Shown here: in pieces, positions 22,625 through 26,806 of the stretch
Numbering within the stretch: position 1 is the stretch's first letter
Layout of the letters: the number at the start of each line of letters is the position of its first letter
Source of the DNA: a virus
Length of the DNA: 58,415 bases
Direction: 5' to 3' (one strand)
Virus record (IMG/VR): IMGVR_UViG_3300032236_000753
Coordinates: 1-58,415 of that record
Made by a program: the position numbers and the translations under genes
Notes under the pieces: model-generated
Seen by the model: the letters and a program-made list of their open reading frames with translations, nothing else
Database searches by the model: none
Told to the model about the DNA's origin: nothing

Positions 22625-23239
22625 TCACTCCTTAAAAGCAGCTTCTAGATCATTCAGTTTTGCATCCAAATCTTTCAGAAAATCAATGACTTCCTTTTCC
22701 ATGGATACAATTTCAGCGTCATCGCGTTCAACGCGCTTGATGAACAACTGGATATTGTCTGGCAAACGTGGATCATACGATACAAAATCTACCCACTTCC
22801 TACCAGTACAAGCCATTTGCCACTGCATCTGTGTCTGGTACTTTTTAGGAACCGATCTTGTGATGCAAGTTTCAATATGCGTTGCGGTATTGGGGCATTT
22901 GATCTCGACCATACCATCGTCATTGATAAGCCCGTCTGGGCTACATCCAGACATATCGATAGTTGGGTGGGGAACAAAGCCTACCTGATCCACCAAAACC
23001 CCTAGTTTGGCTTCATAGGCGAGCCTAGCATGAGGCTCTTGCTCTGTTCCCCACTGCATAGCAGCGTTGATATATGAATCTGCTGGCTTGCCCGTCAGCC
23101 TTTCAACAATCAACTCTGCCATGTAATTAGCCCTAGATGCACTAGGACCAGATTTTGTCTTGGCTATCAAATCAGCCATGCGGCTGGCTGTAACCTTGCC
23201 ACAGCGAATGGCGAGCCATTCTGGTGTTCCTTGTTCCAT
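22625..23239 (-). CDS. YqaJ / lambda-type 5'-3' exonuclease
   Basis: 204 aa. Catalytic pattern of the PF09588 family: GTEQEPHAR (Glu66/Glu68), SPDG with Asp102, and VEIKCP with Glu112 and Lys114, then QTQMQWQM (136-142). The enzyme resects one strand of duplex DNA to expose 3' tails, which the adjacent ERF protein would anneal. The start context is GATAAAAGCTATG and the gap to the ERF gene is 11 bases. Together they form a two-component phage recombinase. Confidence 0.85.
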   Translation of the reverse strand: MEQGTPEWLAIRCGKVTASRMADLIAKTKSGPSASRANYMAELIVERLTGKPADSYINAAMQWGTEQEPHARLAYEAKLGVLVDQVGFVPHPTIDMSGCSPDGLINDDGMVEIKCPNTATHIETCITRSVPKKYQTQMQWQMACTGRKWVDFVSYDPRLPDNIQLFIKRVERDDAEIVSMEKEVIDFLKDLDAKLNDLEAAFKE

Positions 23240-23250
23240 AGCTTTTATCC

Positions 23251-23862
23251 CTAAATATGTCCGACAGGATCTTCACTTCCAAAAGTGGCAACCTCTGCAT
23301 CTTCCGCAGCTTTCTTCAACGCGACCATCTGTGTTTCAGAAATGGTTGAGCGCACATCTTTGTTTTCACGCCACCACTTGTTAAAAGCATCCTTGCCTTT
23401 CCTAGCTGCCTCTAACGCTGAGGCATATGTGACGCGAGTGGCTTCTAAGGGCTTTTCCTGAGCCTTGGCTTGGCCAGCCACAGCGGCATTGCCATCATCG
23501 TCATCTGCAGCCAGATTCAAAATCGCAGACATACCGTAGCGCCGCGCATATGTCAGTGCAGAACCGATACCATGAGCATCCGGCTTGCCAACGGGCATCG
23601 ATAGCACCTCCGACATGAATTCGCCTGACTTATGCAAAATCATGGTTTCCACTTCAACGCGATTATCAGAGGTGCGCGGAAACTGAAGGATAGAAAGATC
23701 GTTGGTGGCAAGCGGTTCGCGGATGGCGTCACGCAGCGCATTGATGTCGGCATACTTTGATTTGAAAACAGGGTTGACGCTGCCCTTGGTCGCAGCTTCG
23801 ATTTGGCCCTGAGCCTTGGCGAGCGCCGTGGCAAGCTCGCCTATTGTTTCAGACATTTTCAT
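23251..23862 (-). CDS. erf: ERF-family single-strand annealing protein
   Basis: 203 aa. The start at 23862 follows AAGGGAAAAGCG; a longer frame to 24009 crosses the divergent promoter and is rejected. Residues 1-130 show the ERF pattern: ELATALAKAQGQIEAATKG, NPVFKSKYADINALRDAI, and the signature GSALTYARRYG (100-110). The C-terminal ~70 residues are a variable helical region. It anneals complementary ssDNA and partners the exonuclease downstream. First gene of the leftward operon from the 23.9 kb control region. Confidence 0.85.
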   Translation of the reverse strand: MKMSETIGELATALAKAQGQIEAATKGSVNPVFKSKYADINALRDAIREPLATNDLSILQFPRTSDNRVEVETMILHKSGEFMSEVLSMPVGKPDAHGIGSALTYARRYGMSAILNLAADDDDGNAAVAGQAKAQEKPLEATRVTYASALEAARKGKDAFNKWWRENKDVRSTISETQMVALKKAAEDAEVATFGSEDPVGHI

Positions 23863-23897
23863 CGCTTTTCCCTTTCTTGCGTCGTTCTGACCATCAC

Positions 23898-23925
23898 AAA
23901 ATACGCCAATGTCAAAGGATGTCAA
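23898..23925 (-). promoter_or_regulatory. Leftward early promoter (ERF operon)
   Basis: On the minus strand, TTGACA (plus 23920-23925) and TATTTT (plus 23898-23903) are separated by 16 bases, 36 bases upstream of the ERF start. The -35 box is part of the left arm of the inverted repeat at 23920-23938, so a bound regulator would block it. A second TTGACA lies at 23910-23915 with no good -10. Confidence 0.6.
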
Positions 23926-23938
23926 GGTGCCCTTGACA
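23920..23938. promoter_or_regulatory. Divergent operator: perfect 8-bp inverted repeat
   Basis: TGTCAAGG (23920-23927), three bases, CCTTGACA (23931-23938): a perfect 8-bp inverted repeat. Its two arms contain the -35 boxes of both divergent promoters, so one dimeric repressor could control both. An extra half site TGTCAAAGG lies at 23910-23918. The adjacent Cro/YdaS-like gene is the natural candidate ligand. Confidence 0.65.
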
Positions 23939-23961
23939 TTTTTTTTGAGGGCAAGTATGAT
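23933..23961 (+). promoter_or_regulatory. Rightward early promoter, probably giving a leaderless mRNA
   Basis: TTGACA (23933-23938), 17 bases, TATGAT (23956-23961): a near-consensus sigma-70 promoter. A start about 7 bases after the -10 falls on the ATG at 23968, and no ribosome site precedes that ATG. The transcript would therefore be leaderless, as for lambda cI from PRM. Confidence 0.65.
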
Positions 23962-23967
23962 TTCAAT

Positions 23968-24159
23968 ATGAAGAAGCGTAACCCCATACTTTGGAGAGTG
24001 TTTGAGCATTTTGGCAGCGCCTCTGCCTTGGCTCGCAGTCTTAACCTAACCCGAGCAGCGGTATCTGCTTGGACCCATATCCCATGGGCGCATGTTCGCA
24101 CAATAGAGCGGTTAACGGGTATTCCTAAAGAGGAGTTACGCCCAGATGTTTACCAATGA
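23968..24159 (+). CDS. Cro / YdaS-like helix-turn-helix regulator
   Basis: 63 aa. The helix-turn-helix SASALARSLNLTRAAVSAW lies at residues ~17-35, followed by HVRTIERLTGIPKEELRPDV, the typical end of YdaS/Cro-superfamily phage regulators. It likely binds the inverted repeat immediately upstream. The ATG coincides with the predicted transcription start, so it is probably translated from a leaderless message; the longer frame from 23803 runs through the promoter and is rejected. Confidence 0.75.
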   Translation: MKKRNPILWRVFEHFGSASALARSLNLTRAAVSAWTHIPWAHVRTIERLTGIPKEELRPDVYQ

Positions 24160-24448
24160 CATCGCCGTTAAAGACGTTTTGCGAATGTTTGATCTTGGTA
24201 TGGACACAGAAACCATTGCCAAGGTTTTGCAGGTTGAAGAACATTTGATCTACAATATCCTGGCATTTGCGAAATCGGTGGAGAAGAACTTTGGAAGTGA
24301 TGCTCAAATTGTCAAAACTTCCACCAAGCGTGAACAGCATTTGGAGGAGGGGAGTGGGAGTGACGTACCGCTCCTCCAATTACTTGAGTTGGAGGGCGTA
24401 TGTATCCGTGGAAATTCTTTTGCAGATGAGAAGCCAAAAACCGATTAA
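24146..24448 (+). CDS. Small helix-turn-helix-like protein overlapping rusA
   Basis: 100 aa; ATG within the end of the regulator gene, after AAGAGGAGTTACGCCCAG. Residues 8-40 (IAVKDVLRMFDLGMDTETIA, then KVLQVEEHLIYNIL) look like a small helix-turn-helix of the kind found in early phage genes. The frame stays open for 149 bases inside the rusA gene, where the protein is low-complexity and probably shaped by the other frame. The N-terminal half looks genuine; the C-terminus is uncertain. Confidence 0.55.
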   Translation: MFTNDIAVKDVLRMFDLGMDTETIAKVLQVEEHLIYNILAFAKSVEKNFGSDAQIVKTSTKREQHLEEGSGSDVPLLQLLELEGVCIRGNSFADEKPKTD

Positions 24449-24737
24449 CGGAAAATTTGGGCTTTATGTTGTATTTGTGAGGAAGGATAAACGTAAGCGG
24501 GATCTCGATAACTTATTCAAAGGGTTGTTGGACATTCTAACTGAGATGAAGGTCATCGAGGATGATTCGTTGATGGAGAATATCGCCGCAGAATGGGCTC
24601 CGAATGATGGGCATTTCGATTGTGCGGTGATTGTGTGGATAAACTCGATACCTGAAGCTATGGAAACAGGAGAACATGATGGAAAAGCAAAAACTCGAAA
24701 AGCTCGTAAAACTTTGCCCCGCAAATCCGACATTTGA
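24300..24737 (+). CDS. rusA: RusA-type Holliday junction resolvase
   Basis: 145 aa from ATG 24300, the start matching the family N-terminus (LSKLPPSVNSIWRR). The RusA signature KRDLDNLFKGLLDIL gives the catalytic aspartates Asp68 and Asp70 with Asn71, and VIEDDSLM supplies further acidic residues near 88-89. It cleaves four-way DNA junctions symmetrically and would resolve recombination intermediates made by ERF and the exonuclease before packaging. It overlaps both neighbours (149 and 59 bases). Confidence 0.85.
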   Translation: MLKLSKLPPSVNSIWRRGVGVTYRSSNYLSWRAYVSVEILLQMRSQKPINGKFGLYVVFVRKDKRKRDLDNLFKGLLDILTEMKVIEDDSLMENIAAEWAPNDGHFDCAVIVWINSIPEAMETGEHDGKAKTRKARKTLPRKSDI

Positions 24738-24903
24738 TTTGTGTGCAGCCAGCCAGCCAGAGCTTTGGATTAAATGGTGCGAAGCCCGTGGCAGGCAAAA
24801 TGAGCCTAGCAATGTTTGGACAGAGATTGATGTGTACAATCACATCTGGTCCCTTTGCTATAATTATCCTGATTTGGCGAATCAATTTGGAGCCATATCA
24901 TGA
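24679..24903 (+). CDS. Small hypothetical protein
   Basis: 74 aa. Of two adjacent ATGs, 24679 has the better spacing to AGGAG. Trp- and Cys-containing soluble protein (LCAASQPELWIKWCEARG). It overlaps rusA by 59 bases and the next gene by four. Not recognised. Confidence 0.55.
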   Translation: MEKQKLEKLVKLCPANPTFDLCAASQPELWIKWCEARGRQNEPSNVWTEIDVYNHIWSLCYNYPDLANQFGAIS

Positions 24904-25109
24904 TGATCCAATTAAACCCCACAATTCCGCTTACCACCCCGTTGGGCAAAGCGTTATGCCATTTTTTGATTGATAATGGCGACGAGCATCATTTGCTGTG
25001 GGTGTGCATACAGGAAGATACCGGAGAAATTTGGACTTGGCCCAACACCAAAGTTCGTGGTCGAAACAATCCGACATTGGGCAGAAATATGGAGATAGGC
25101 GATGACTGA
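24900..25109 (+). CDS. Small hypothetical protein
   Basis: 69 aa with ATG 7 bases after GGAG. The core HHLLWVCIQEDTGEIWTWPN is a pattern frequent in small early genes of phages infecting Alphaproteobacteria. Function unknown. Overlaps both neighbours by four to eight bases. Confidence 0.6.
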   Translation: MMIQLNPTIPLTTPLGKALCHFLIDNGDEHHLLWVCIQEDTGEIWTWPNTKVRGRNNPTLGRNMEIGDD

Positions 25110-25332
25110 ATGGCAACCAATCGAAACTGCGCCAAAGGATGGGACGAGTGTTCTTCTTTATGGCATTTGGTCTGGCGAAGTTCATGGTCACGACAATGAG
25201 TATTCTATTTTACAAGCTTCTTTTTCGTTTAAAGATTGGCTTGTAGAAGGGGGTGAATATTATTGCGCATATGTTCTCAATCCCACCCATTGGATGCCGT
25301 TGCCGCCAGAACCTAAAAAGGAGAAGAAGTGA
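25102..25332 (+). CDS. DUF551-like small protein
   Basis: 76 aa. It has the family frame of DUF551: WQPIETAPKDGTSVLLYG at the N-terminus and THWMPLPPEP at the C-terminus. These proteins are widespread in phage early regions and have no assigned function. Start after GGAGATAGGCG; the stop overlaps the next ATG by one base. Confidence 0.7.
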   Translation: MTEWQPIETAPKDGTSVLLYGIWSGEVHGHDNEYSILQASFSFKDWLVEGGEYYCAYVLNPTHWMPLPPEPKKEKK

Positions 25333-25457
25333 TGGAAGAACTGCTCAACTTGCTCTTGGTTCTTTGGCTTCTTTTCATGACTGTAGGTGTCTGCATCATA
25401 GCCACCTACATTGTTTGGGATGCCCTTAAATCAATCTACAGGGGAGATTTTCCATGA
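25332..25457 (+). CDS. 41-aa membrane microprotein
   Basis: A single strongly hydrophobic segment (LLNLLLVLWLLFMTVGVCII) followed by a short positively charged tail, so an inner-membrane peptide with the C-terminus probably cytoplasmic. It starts at TGATG with the previous gene and ends at ATGA with the next, a tight coupled junction on both sides. Role unknown; inhibition of superinfection or of host functions is possible. Confidence 0.6.
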   Translation: MEELLNLLLVLWLLFMTVGVCIIATYIVWDALKSIYRGDFP

Positions 25458-25645
25458 CTGATGATCTTGTGAAGCGGCTGCGTACCCCTAATGGGCCATT
25501 TAACTGGGAAGACGCCGTTGCAACCTACCTTGAAGCCGCCGATTGCATTGAACAGTTAGAACGCGAACTTAGGAAGCTTGAACATTGGCTTCCAGACGAT
25601 GTGTTCCAGCCTATTCTTGCAATATTGGAGGGGAAAGATGGATAG
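25454..25645 (+). CDS. LVKRLR / LEGKD family small protein, copy 1
   Basis: 63 aa. Pattern DDLVKRLR...AADCIEQLE...ILEGKDG. The 22 bases at 25461-25482 recur exactly at 25841-25862 in copy 3. The C-terminal LEGKD codons contain GGAGGGGAAAGATG, which supplies the ribosome site and ATG of the next gene. Helical, likely coiled coil. Function unknown. Confidence 0.65.
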   Translation: MTDDLVKRLRTPNGPFNWEDAVATYLEAADCIEQLERELRKLEHWLPDDVFQPILAILEGKDG

Positions 25646-25844
25646 TTTTCTTGAAGCTTATGAAAGAGAAAACAAAATTGTTTGGGGGCGAGTTGATGAA
25701 TTGGAGGCTGAAGAAAAACGCCTTAAGGCTCGCATCGAGAAGCTGGAGGAGGCGCTGCGCGCATTGTCGGCTACTTGCGATTGTTGGGCGGCGGTGAAGG
25801 AGCGCGGAAAGGTAATAAAACTATTGGAGGGGAAAGATGAATGA
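25638..25844 (+). CDS. LEGKD family small coiled-coil protein, copy 2
   Basis: 68 aa. Start ATG lies inside the LEGKD codons of copy 1 (8-base overlap). Strong coiled-coil prediction by eye (VDELEAEEKRLKARIEKLEE) and the family block IEKLEEALR, ending LLEGKDE, which again provides the start of the next gene. Lacks the LVKRLR opening. Confidence 0.65.
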   Translation: MDSFLEAYERENKIVWGRVDELEAEEKRLKARIEKLEEALRALSATCDCWAAVKERGKVIKLLEGKDE

Positions 25845-26163
25845 TCTTGTGAAGCGGCTGCGCAGTTTGGTTGGGCAGTACATTGGTGATGCCGATATTG
25901 ACGATGAATTGCAGGGTGCCGCCGACTGCATCGAGAAGCTGGAGGCTGCTATTGTAACATATAGCAGCGCTGTAGCAGGTGCCCAAGTATGTAATGAAGA
26001 ACTAAATCGCGCACTTAATCGCGTGATTGACCGCTGGGAAATTCAAAGCGCCCGCATAGAGAAGTTAGAGGAGGCGTTGCGGGAGATTGCTGCGCTGGGT
26101 TATTGGGATGGCGACAGCGCGATGAATATCGCCCGCAAAGCACTGGAGGGGAAAGATGACTGA
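25837..26163 (+). CDS. LVKRLR / LEGKD family protein, copy 3
   Basis: 108 aa and the most complete member: NDLVKRLRS, AADCIEKLEA, IEKLEEALREIAAL, and MNIARKALEGKDD. The last block contains the GGAGGGGAAAGATG start region of the next gene. Helical throughout. Related small proteins are common in phage early regions without known function. Confidence 0.65.
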   Translation: MNDLVKRLRSLVGQYIGDADIDDELQGAADCIEKLEAAIVTYSSAVAGAQVCNEELNRALNRVIDRWEIQSARIEKLEEALREIAALGYWDGDSAMNIARKALEGKDD

Positions 26164-26416
26164 ACTGAACGAAAAGTTAGCACAAGAAGCCGCAGAATTG
26201 ATCAACGGCGGTGAGTGGCGTGATGGCAAGTGGTATTCTGAAGGCCATCGTGACGCATGGCGAAGGGCGTTGAAGCCAGCCGCCGACCGCATCGAAAAGT
26301 TGGAGGCGGCGCTGCGGGAGATAGTCGATCTGTCTAAAGGCATGTCATACCTTTTAGGGTTCACTCCCGCAGACATCGCCCGCAAAGCACTGGAAGATAA
26401 AGATAGTTTGGTTTGA
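26156..26416 (+). CDS. LEGKD family protein, copy 4 (decayed tail)
   Basis: 86 aa. Middle and C-terminus match the family (AADRIEKLEAALREIVDL, IARKALEDKD), but the junction codons have changed to GGAAGATAAAGAT, no longer supply a start, and the next gene has its own ribosome site 25 bases on. The N-terminal block (EWRDGKWYSEGHRDAWRRAL) is unique to this copy. Confidence 0.65.
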   Translation: MTELNEKLAQEAAELINGGEWRDGKWYSEGHRDAWRRALKPAADRIEKLEAALREIVDLSKGMSYLLGFTPADIARKALEDKDSLV

Positions 26417-26440: not shown

Positions 26441-26806
26441 ATGAATCACAAAGACGCACTTCTCTCTGCTGTCACTATCTTAAATGAACGTGCGGCAGAA
26501 TATGGACCAGAAGAATTGTGTTTCCAACGCATAGCCAGCCTGGCAACTATCGTTCTGAATAAGTATCTAAACGAATACGACATTGCCATGATACTGCATT
26601 GCGTTAAGCTTGGCAGATTACAGGAAAGCCGTGGCAAAGCTGATAACTATATTGATGGCATCAACTATCTTGCGTTTGGAGCGCAATTTGCTCAGACGCT
26701 GGATCCTGTAGCTACGGCTCAACAAGGCGTTGATGCGTTAGACGATGGCATCGCCAGCATCGCACAAAAATATGCGCCGTTACCTAACACAGACGAGCCG
26801 CAATAA
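26441..26806 (+). CDS. DUF6378-like protein
   Basis: 121 aa, start after AAAGGGGAAAAAC. The body NERAAEYGPEELCFQRIASL, IAMILHCVKLGRLQES and DNYIDGINYLAFG matches the phage DUF6378 layout. The family is all-helical and widespread in phage early regions, and no function is assigned. It is the last gene before a hairpin-rich gap. Confidence 0.65.
   Translation: MNHKDALLSAVTILNERAAEYGPEELCFQRIASLATIVLNKYLNEYDIAMILHCVKLGRLQESRGKADNYIDGINYLAFGAQFAQTLDPVATAQQGVDALDDGIASIAQKYAPLPNTDEPQ

Follow-up and report, generated by a model that had tools for sequence, protein, structure and literature searches.

We propose that four small consecutive genes of a viral genome most probably form a translationally coupled array, which encodes small alpha-helical phage proteins and has been diversified by homologous recombination at DNA-conserved modules. 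The genes lie on the plus strand of a window of 58,415 nt (the whole stretch of DNA analyzed, IMG/VR virus record IMGVR_UViG_3300032236_000753) and comprise gene A (25454..25645, 63 aa), gene B (25638..25844, 68 aa from the ATG at 25638), gene C (25837..26163, 108 aa), and gene D (26156..26416, 86 aa). The four genes and their 8-nt overlaps at 25638, 25837, and 26156 were found as the original prediction had described them. The modules follow the order of N module (MTDDLVKRLR), variable N half, M module ((AADR)IEKLEAALRE), variable C half, and linker (IARKALEGKD). The N modules of gene A (25461..25482, MTDDLVKRLR) and gene C (25841..25862, MNDLVKRLR) share the 22 identical nucleotides that had been predicted. 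By repeat analysis, M modules were placed at 25534..25560 in gene A, at 25727..25765 in gene B (RIEKLEEALRA), at 25909..25949 and 26049..26087 in gene C, and at 26270..26322 in gene D, all on the plus strand; the coiled-coil block (...CGCATCGAGAAGCTGGAGG..GCGCTGCG, 27-41 nt) was present once in genes A, B, and D and in two copies in gene C, and a 30-nt end block (90%) was common to genes C and D. The coiled-coil block, which is a second crossover module lying within the genes, and the C/D end block had both been overlooked in the original prediction.

At the junctions of the array, the end of one protein, the SD, and the start of the next gene are the same DNA, as had been claimed. The linkers between genes A and B (25627..25640) and between genes B and C (25826..25839) both read GGAGGGGAAAGATG, with the SD and the start of gene B lying within the end of gene A, and the third identical copy is found at the C/D junction, where the full-length linker (26128..26158) is ATCGCCCGCAAAGCACTGGAGGGGAAAGATG. 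The window contains exactly three copies of GGAGGGGAAAGATG, all of them at these junctions, and the four further matches have three mismatches each. Each SD (GGAGG) stands 6 nt before its ATG, and the upstream stop lies 5 nt past that ATG, giving a stop/start overlap with the SD inside the upstream gene, as in translationally coupled gene pairs. The proteins had been described as ending in LEGKD; the motif is there, and one more residue follows it (LEGKDG in gene A, LEGKDE in gene B, and LEGKDD in gene C). At the end of gene D, a decayed linker was observed (26375..26404, ATCGCCCGCAAAGCACTGGAAGATAAAGAT), in which GGAGG became GGAAG and ATG became ATA. The loss of the start signal in this fourth copy was correctly noticed, but the peptide was not kept as had been stated, since it is altered to LEDKDSLV. 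Because the same DNA recurs at the junctions of many other phages, the repeats of the array are far beyond chance.

The linker DNA GCCCGCAAAGCACTGGAGGGGAAAGATG supplies the SD, the 6-nt spacing, and then the ATG of whichever gene comes next. Conservation spans approximately -25 to +7 around this ATG and ends on both sides (184 non-redundant junctions; per-base profile from 205 junctions). In a strict synonymous set (74 genes from 63 contigs), in which only pairs differing in both the N and the C half were compared, the synonymous mismatch at the successive RKALEGKD codons was 0.05, 0, 0.05, 0.11, 0, 0.08, 0, and 0, against 0.79, 0.50, 0.75, 0.80, 0.45, 0.73, 0.50, and 0.49 expected from the codon use of the same genes. 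The codons for E, G, K, and D at the end of this stretch can be accounted for by the SD and ATG, whereas those for R, K, A, and L cannot; the codon fixity of the linker thus exceeds the need of a ribosome site. Conservation beyond the SD could also reflect a recent spread of the linker instead of ongoing recombination.

The genes that follow the linker were examined at 175 LEGKD-ending genes, and in 161 of them the next ATG lay at -8, belonging to a family gene in 90 cases and to another gene in 71. Another 12 had no next ORF of scored length, and the eight examined among these had a short ORF (e.g., MSEYEVTAFW...) starting at this same ATG. When no stop is available in the downstream gene at this position, the upstream gene extends by one or two codons, giving overlaps of 11 or 14 nt, and the start does not move; the unit is therefore bounded by the ATG. 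Since the next gene belonged to the family in 90 cases and to others in 71, the junction is a portable linker that is not restricted to the family. The genes had been regarded as a self-propagating family in which the end of each copy is the start of the next, and this family-only reading is ruled out by the 71 of 161 junctions that lead into other genes. The term self-propagating was also too strong, as no mobility function was seen and ordinary homologous recombination is enough. Non-homologous genes flanking the same boundary, which the original prediction had named as evidence against itself, are thus present at 71/161 LEGKD junctions; they remove the exclusivity of the family and do not refute recombination. 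One non-family gene encoding a predicted membrane protein of about 26 aa (MSEYEVxAFWxVIxILxxTLIWGL) was observed right after the linker in six loci (L001, L040, L045, L085, L096, and L196). In the window, a DUF551 protein (25102-25332) is encoded two genes upstream of the array, and close relatives of this protein (MTEWQPI.TAPKDGT...) are encoded elsewhere directly downstream of the linker; its gene thus also travels with the linker.

A search for LEGKD-ending cassettes in other genomes had been suggested as a check, and a peptide-level scan of IMG/VR across all codings recovered 102 stretches with KALEGKD[D/E]-stop. Among 100 distinct genes with this ending, GGAGG was present in 99, and GAT followed by G, which creates the ATG, in 100/100. 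A first scan by alignment of the four proteins found 48 viral loci, and a DNA scan for the linker gave at least 119 matches. No clear counterpart was detected among 50,697 named phage records at the DNA and protein levels, the best match being a spring-water contig (E 7e-3), and the exact linker was present in GTDB genomes in only four MAG contigs of 45-61 kb, which are probably phage. The array contigs are all metagenomic or single records, and whole records carry from one to nine family members, mostly clustered. On a 34-kb contig (L044), the related ends IARAALEGK and IARAALGEKKDD were observed, which suggests a wider family with other linker versions.

The second conserved module separates gene halves that have been exchanged extensively. 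The halves were defined by a cut at the last IEKLE-type motif, and the 229 distinct proteins fell into 151 N clusters and 114 C clusters in 221 combinations. At least two C partners were found for 42 of the 46 multi-member N clusters and at least two N partners for 46 of the 47 C clusters, and six complete 2x2 squares of N and C halves were present. The probability of sharing the C half given the same N half was 0.08 (11 pairs, vs. 2 under random pairing). N and C halves assort almost freely around the M module (RIEKLEAALRE). Pairs with the same N half showed a nucleotide identity of approximately 0.8 to the end of M and approximately 0.27 thereafter, and pairs with the same C half showed the mirror image. 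The genes of the window take part in this exchange: the N half of gene A (TPNGPFNWEDAVATYLEAA) is also present in other phages, the C half of gene C (EIAALGYWDGDSAMNIARKALEGKDD) belongs to a cluster paired with 17 different N halves, and the N half of gene D (MTELNEKLAQEAAELINGGEWRDGKWYSEGHRDAWRRALKP) is paired with four different C halves. The mismatch by codon position was 0.16/0.11/0.36 for the N halves and 0.15/0.13/0.39 for the C halves, a pattern indicating that the halves evolve as proteins under purifying selection.

Natural recombinants were identified by comparing related contigs, which yielded 59 distinct clean indels of 100-3000 nt. Among them, 21 touch family genes, not all of them as independent events, and these 21 were bounded by linker repeats in seven cases, M repeats in six, an M-like repeat in one, and the N block in one; most of the others had shorter matches resembling pieces of the linker, M, or N modules. 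The M module therefore accounts for about as many family indels as the linker. The exact repeat at the breakpoints averaged 11.8 nt for the family indels, compared with 3.8 nt when indels of equal length were placed at random in these arrays and 5.7 nt for non-family indels from the same contigs (Mann-Whitney P 2e-5). The linker repeats at both ends of 7/21 family indels between related phages, backed by this repeat-length control, support the earlier proposal that whole genes can be gained and lost, and the signals for expression are kept in these events. The cleanest chimera was observed between L131 and L164, which are approximately 98% identical over 11 kb: the front of gene 1 of L131 (MTDDLVKRLRCEEHWPLDW...) and the back of its gene 2 (...RRIKDMHDGLVDDLEERDDRTYFIVIGALEGKDD) form one fused gene in L164, with the joint within a 30-nt M repeat. 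A second chimera was found between L080 and L088. Insertion of a whole cassette would give linker repeats by any mechanism, and only the within-gene M events would discriminate; these events carry the argument for recombination, since they are not explicable as whole-gene insertion at a gene boundary.

Other explanations were weighed against this evidence. Ordinary translational coupling might be all that is involved, with LEGKD being merely the peptide of a strong SD, the copies being old paralogues, and recombination playing no special part. Packed phage genes do put the SD and ATG in the upstream gene, the same principle applies in the lambdoid ea regions (lambda Ea22 and P22 EaD), and the E, G, K, and D codons follow from the constraint of SD and ATG; however, the fixed synonymous R, K, A, and L codons, the second fixed module, the free assortment, and the indel breakpoints in repeats are all left unexplained, and this disfavoured explanation is unlikely to be sufficient. 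The decay of the linker at the end of gene D, where no gene starts, argues against a further proposal, namely that a phage or host factor binds to the linker, as proposed for the SAS of mycobacteriophages, and that the conservation of the linker reflects this binding site. The fixed non-SD bases beside the SD do resemble the argument made for SAS (PMC3203893), and family genes as well as unrelated ones are preceded by the linker; yet a binding site would not account for the M module and the indels, and we judge this proposal improbable as well.

The standard alternative explanation of phage mosaicism, discussed in PMC3029335 and PMC3233612, is illegitimate recombination with subsequent selection. 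Under this model, joints would form anywhere, and the survivors, which keep the start signal and the coiled-coil phase, would mimic targeting. The linker-flanked whole-gene indels alone are compatible with such a process, but selection on the protein would not conserve the synonymous sites of the modules, and the repeats at the family breakpoints are three times as long as at random and longer than those of non-family indels in the same contigs; we therefore consider the model quite improbable. It must also be considered that nearly all of the sequences are metagenome contigs and that the modules are repeated, so that assemblers could have joined unrelated genes and halves through short repeats. 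This possibility was rejected as very improbable on the repeat assemblies, as arrays of three to five genes are 99.4-100% alike in independent assemblies (L076/L121/L145, L158/L189, and L069/L102) from different data sets, some of which may be re-assemblies of the same samples. In addition, the halves differ by approximately 22% at the protein level and hence are not copies of the same reads, and their codon-position bias points to long evolution as genes.

We therefore return to homologous recombination at the conserved modules acting on a coupled array, for which the following mechanism can be envisaged. A ribosome ending one gene would stop 5 nt past the next ATG and could restart there, coupling the genes by re-initiation. 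A crossover in the linker would add, delete, or swap whole genes and keep the SD and start, and a crossover in M would swap halves to give a chimera, which would be in-frame because M is present in every gene in the frame of that gene. The array lies in the replication/recombination region, which is probably early, and candidate enzymes are encoded within 3 kb of it: an ERF-family single-strand annealing protein as the candidate recombinase (23251..24009, minus strand; Pfam PF04404, E 5.8e-21) and a YqaJ-type exonuclease (22625..23239, minus strand; PF09588, E 2.4e-30), both 1.4-2.8 kb from the array, together with a RusA-type Holliday junction resolvase (24300..24737, plus strand; PF05866, E 1.1e-12). 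On both identical and 78%-identical sequences, the Erf/Exo pair of phage D3 equals lambda Red in recombination (De Paepe et al. 2014, PMC3945230), and such Rad52-like phage recombinases offer a plausible enzyme route for the window, where ERF and YqaJ lie near the array; however, ERF or YqaJ was present in only a minority of the array-bearing records (ERF in 6 and YqaJ in 7 of 30, many of which may be incomplete). RecT and AAA_24 (Sak4-type) were rare to near absent in these records, with the same reservation on completeness. These counts weakened the idea that the phage's own ERF/YqaJ serves as the shuffling enzyme everywhere. For a dedicated diversification system with recombination machinery of its own (HsdS-like shuffling or similar), the picture is likewise mixed, with ERF, YqaJ, and RusA close to the array in the window but ERF/YqaJ in a minority of the array-bearing records.

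Two neighbours of the array also recurred. A 69-aa protein (24900-25109), which had no Pfam or PHROGs match, had relatives in 50/153 array-bearing loci at a median identity of 60%, and a DUF6378 protein (26441-26806), the only tested window neighbour that was commoner, had relatives in 55/153. For the proteins of genes A-D, Pfam gave no match above the cut-off and no Ea family, and PHROGs gave nothing convincing, only chance-level or coiled-coil matches. The AlphaFold model of the gene C product as a single protein (pLDDT 88) comprises helices at residues 2-14, 19-86, and 92-104, one of them 68 residues long, and Foldseek found no match in the PDB at E <= 0.001.

Such an array would be of benefit as a repertoire of two-ended proteins, acting as adaptors or inhibitors on host targets that vary, and the shuffled halves are ready-made candidate host-interaction proteins. 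In an extended form of this proposal, these freshwater phages would possess a combinatorial protein-diversification system, in which a library of N and C halves would be recombined at the DNA-fixed coiled-coil module and stacked by the DNA-fixed linker into expression-ready tandem arrays, kept because new two-ended proteins would act against changing targets in the host, for instance defence systems. We regard this extended form as doubtful at present, with a dedicated counter-defence repertoire being possible.

Comparison with known systems places the array within a long-standing question on phage mosaicism. Taken by itself, the junction most probably represents translational coupling, a known arrangement. 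The DNA-conserved boundary is most comparable with the short conserved boundary sequences of lambdoid phages (Susskind and Botstein 1978; Clark et al. 2001), which were proposed as targets of homologous recombination and are compared here as cited in PMC3029335 and PMC3233612. As described there, both systems have short conserved DNA at junctions with different genes on either side; in contrast, the boundary of the array is protein-coding and carries the SD and ATG of the next gene, and the array adds a second conserved module inside the genes, with natural recombinants at both.

The linker also resembles the SAS of cluster K mycobacteriophages, a 13-bp sequence (GGGATAGGAGCCC; PMC3203893), in that both are repeated SD-bearing sequences just upstream of non-structural gene starts, including those of unrelated genes, and in that both have conserved bases beyond the SD. 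The sequences differ, however (GGGATAGGAGCCC vs. GCCCGCAAAGCACTGGAGGGGAAAGATG), and the linker, unlike SAS, codes for the C-terminus of a single protein family and is tied to half-gene shuffling.

The array proteins may share the layout of N domain, coiled coil, and variable C domain with the early proteins Ea22 and EaD of lambda and P22 (PMC7093339), but they have no Pfam Ea match or sequence relation to them and are not family members; moreover, the Ea22/EaD genes overlap the next gene by 4 nt instead of 8 and are not tandem arrays of one family. Ea22-type proteins end in a '+GE' C-terminal tripeptide of unknown significance (PMC7093339). Lambda Ea22 ends in KGE within AAAGGAGAGTGA (L202:1048-1075), where '+GE' is coded by the SD-like AAAGGAGAG at the stop, and P22 EaD ends in KGE within AAGGGGGAATGA (L207:2075-2095), with AAGGGGGAA at the stop and the start of eaI overlapped by 4 nt. 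In these two cases, the '+GE' DNA looks like a ribosome site or its remnant. The ea genes of lambda and P22 support the general principle, yet they show that ribosome sites within genes are ordinary. The same principle can be used in reading other phage genomes, since peptide conservation at a C-terminus may stem from a ribosome site instead of a protein motif.

Ongoing exchange of fragments among phage proteins, linked to host interaction, was described by Smug et al. (2023, PMC10684548), and the examples considered from it are neck passage, tail fibre, endolysin, reductase, and replication proteins; compared with these, the array concerns a small protein with a defined, DNA-conserved crossover module. 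What is new here is a coding boundary sequence joined to a second coding crossover module, with half-genes assorting near-freely across many phages. In published comparisons, boundary sequences could not be found at most joints; in the array family they are plain, coding, and countable, and they occur in many phages with natural recombinants. With the synonymous sites as a built-in control, the boundary-sequence question thus becomes directly testable, and the array represents a strong, new form of the boundary-sequence model of phage mosaicism (PMC3029335, PMC3233612).
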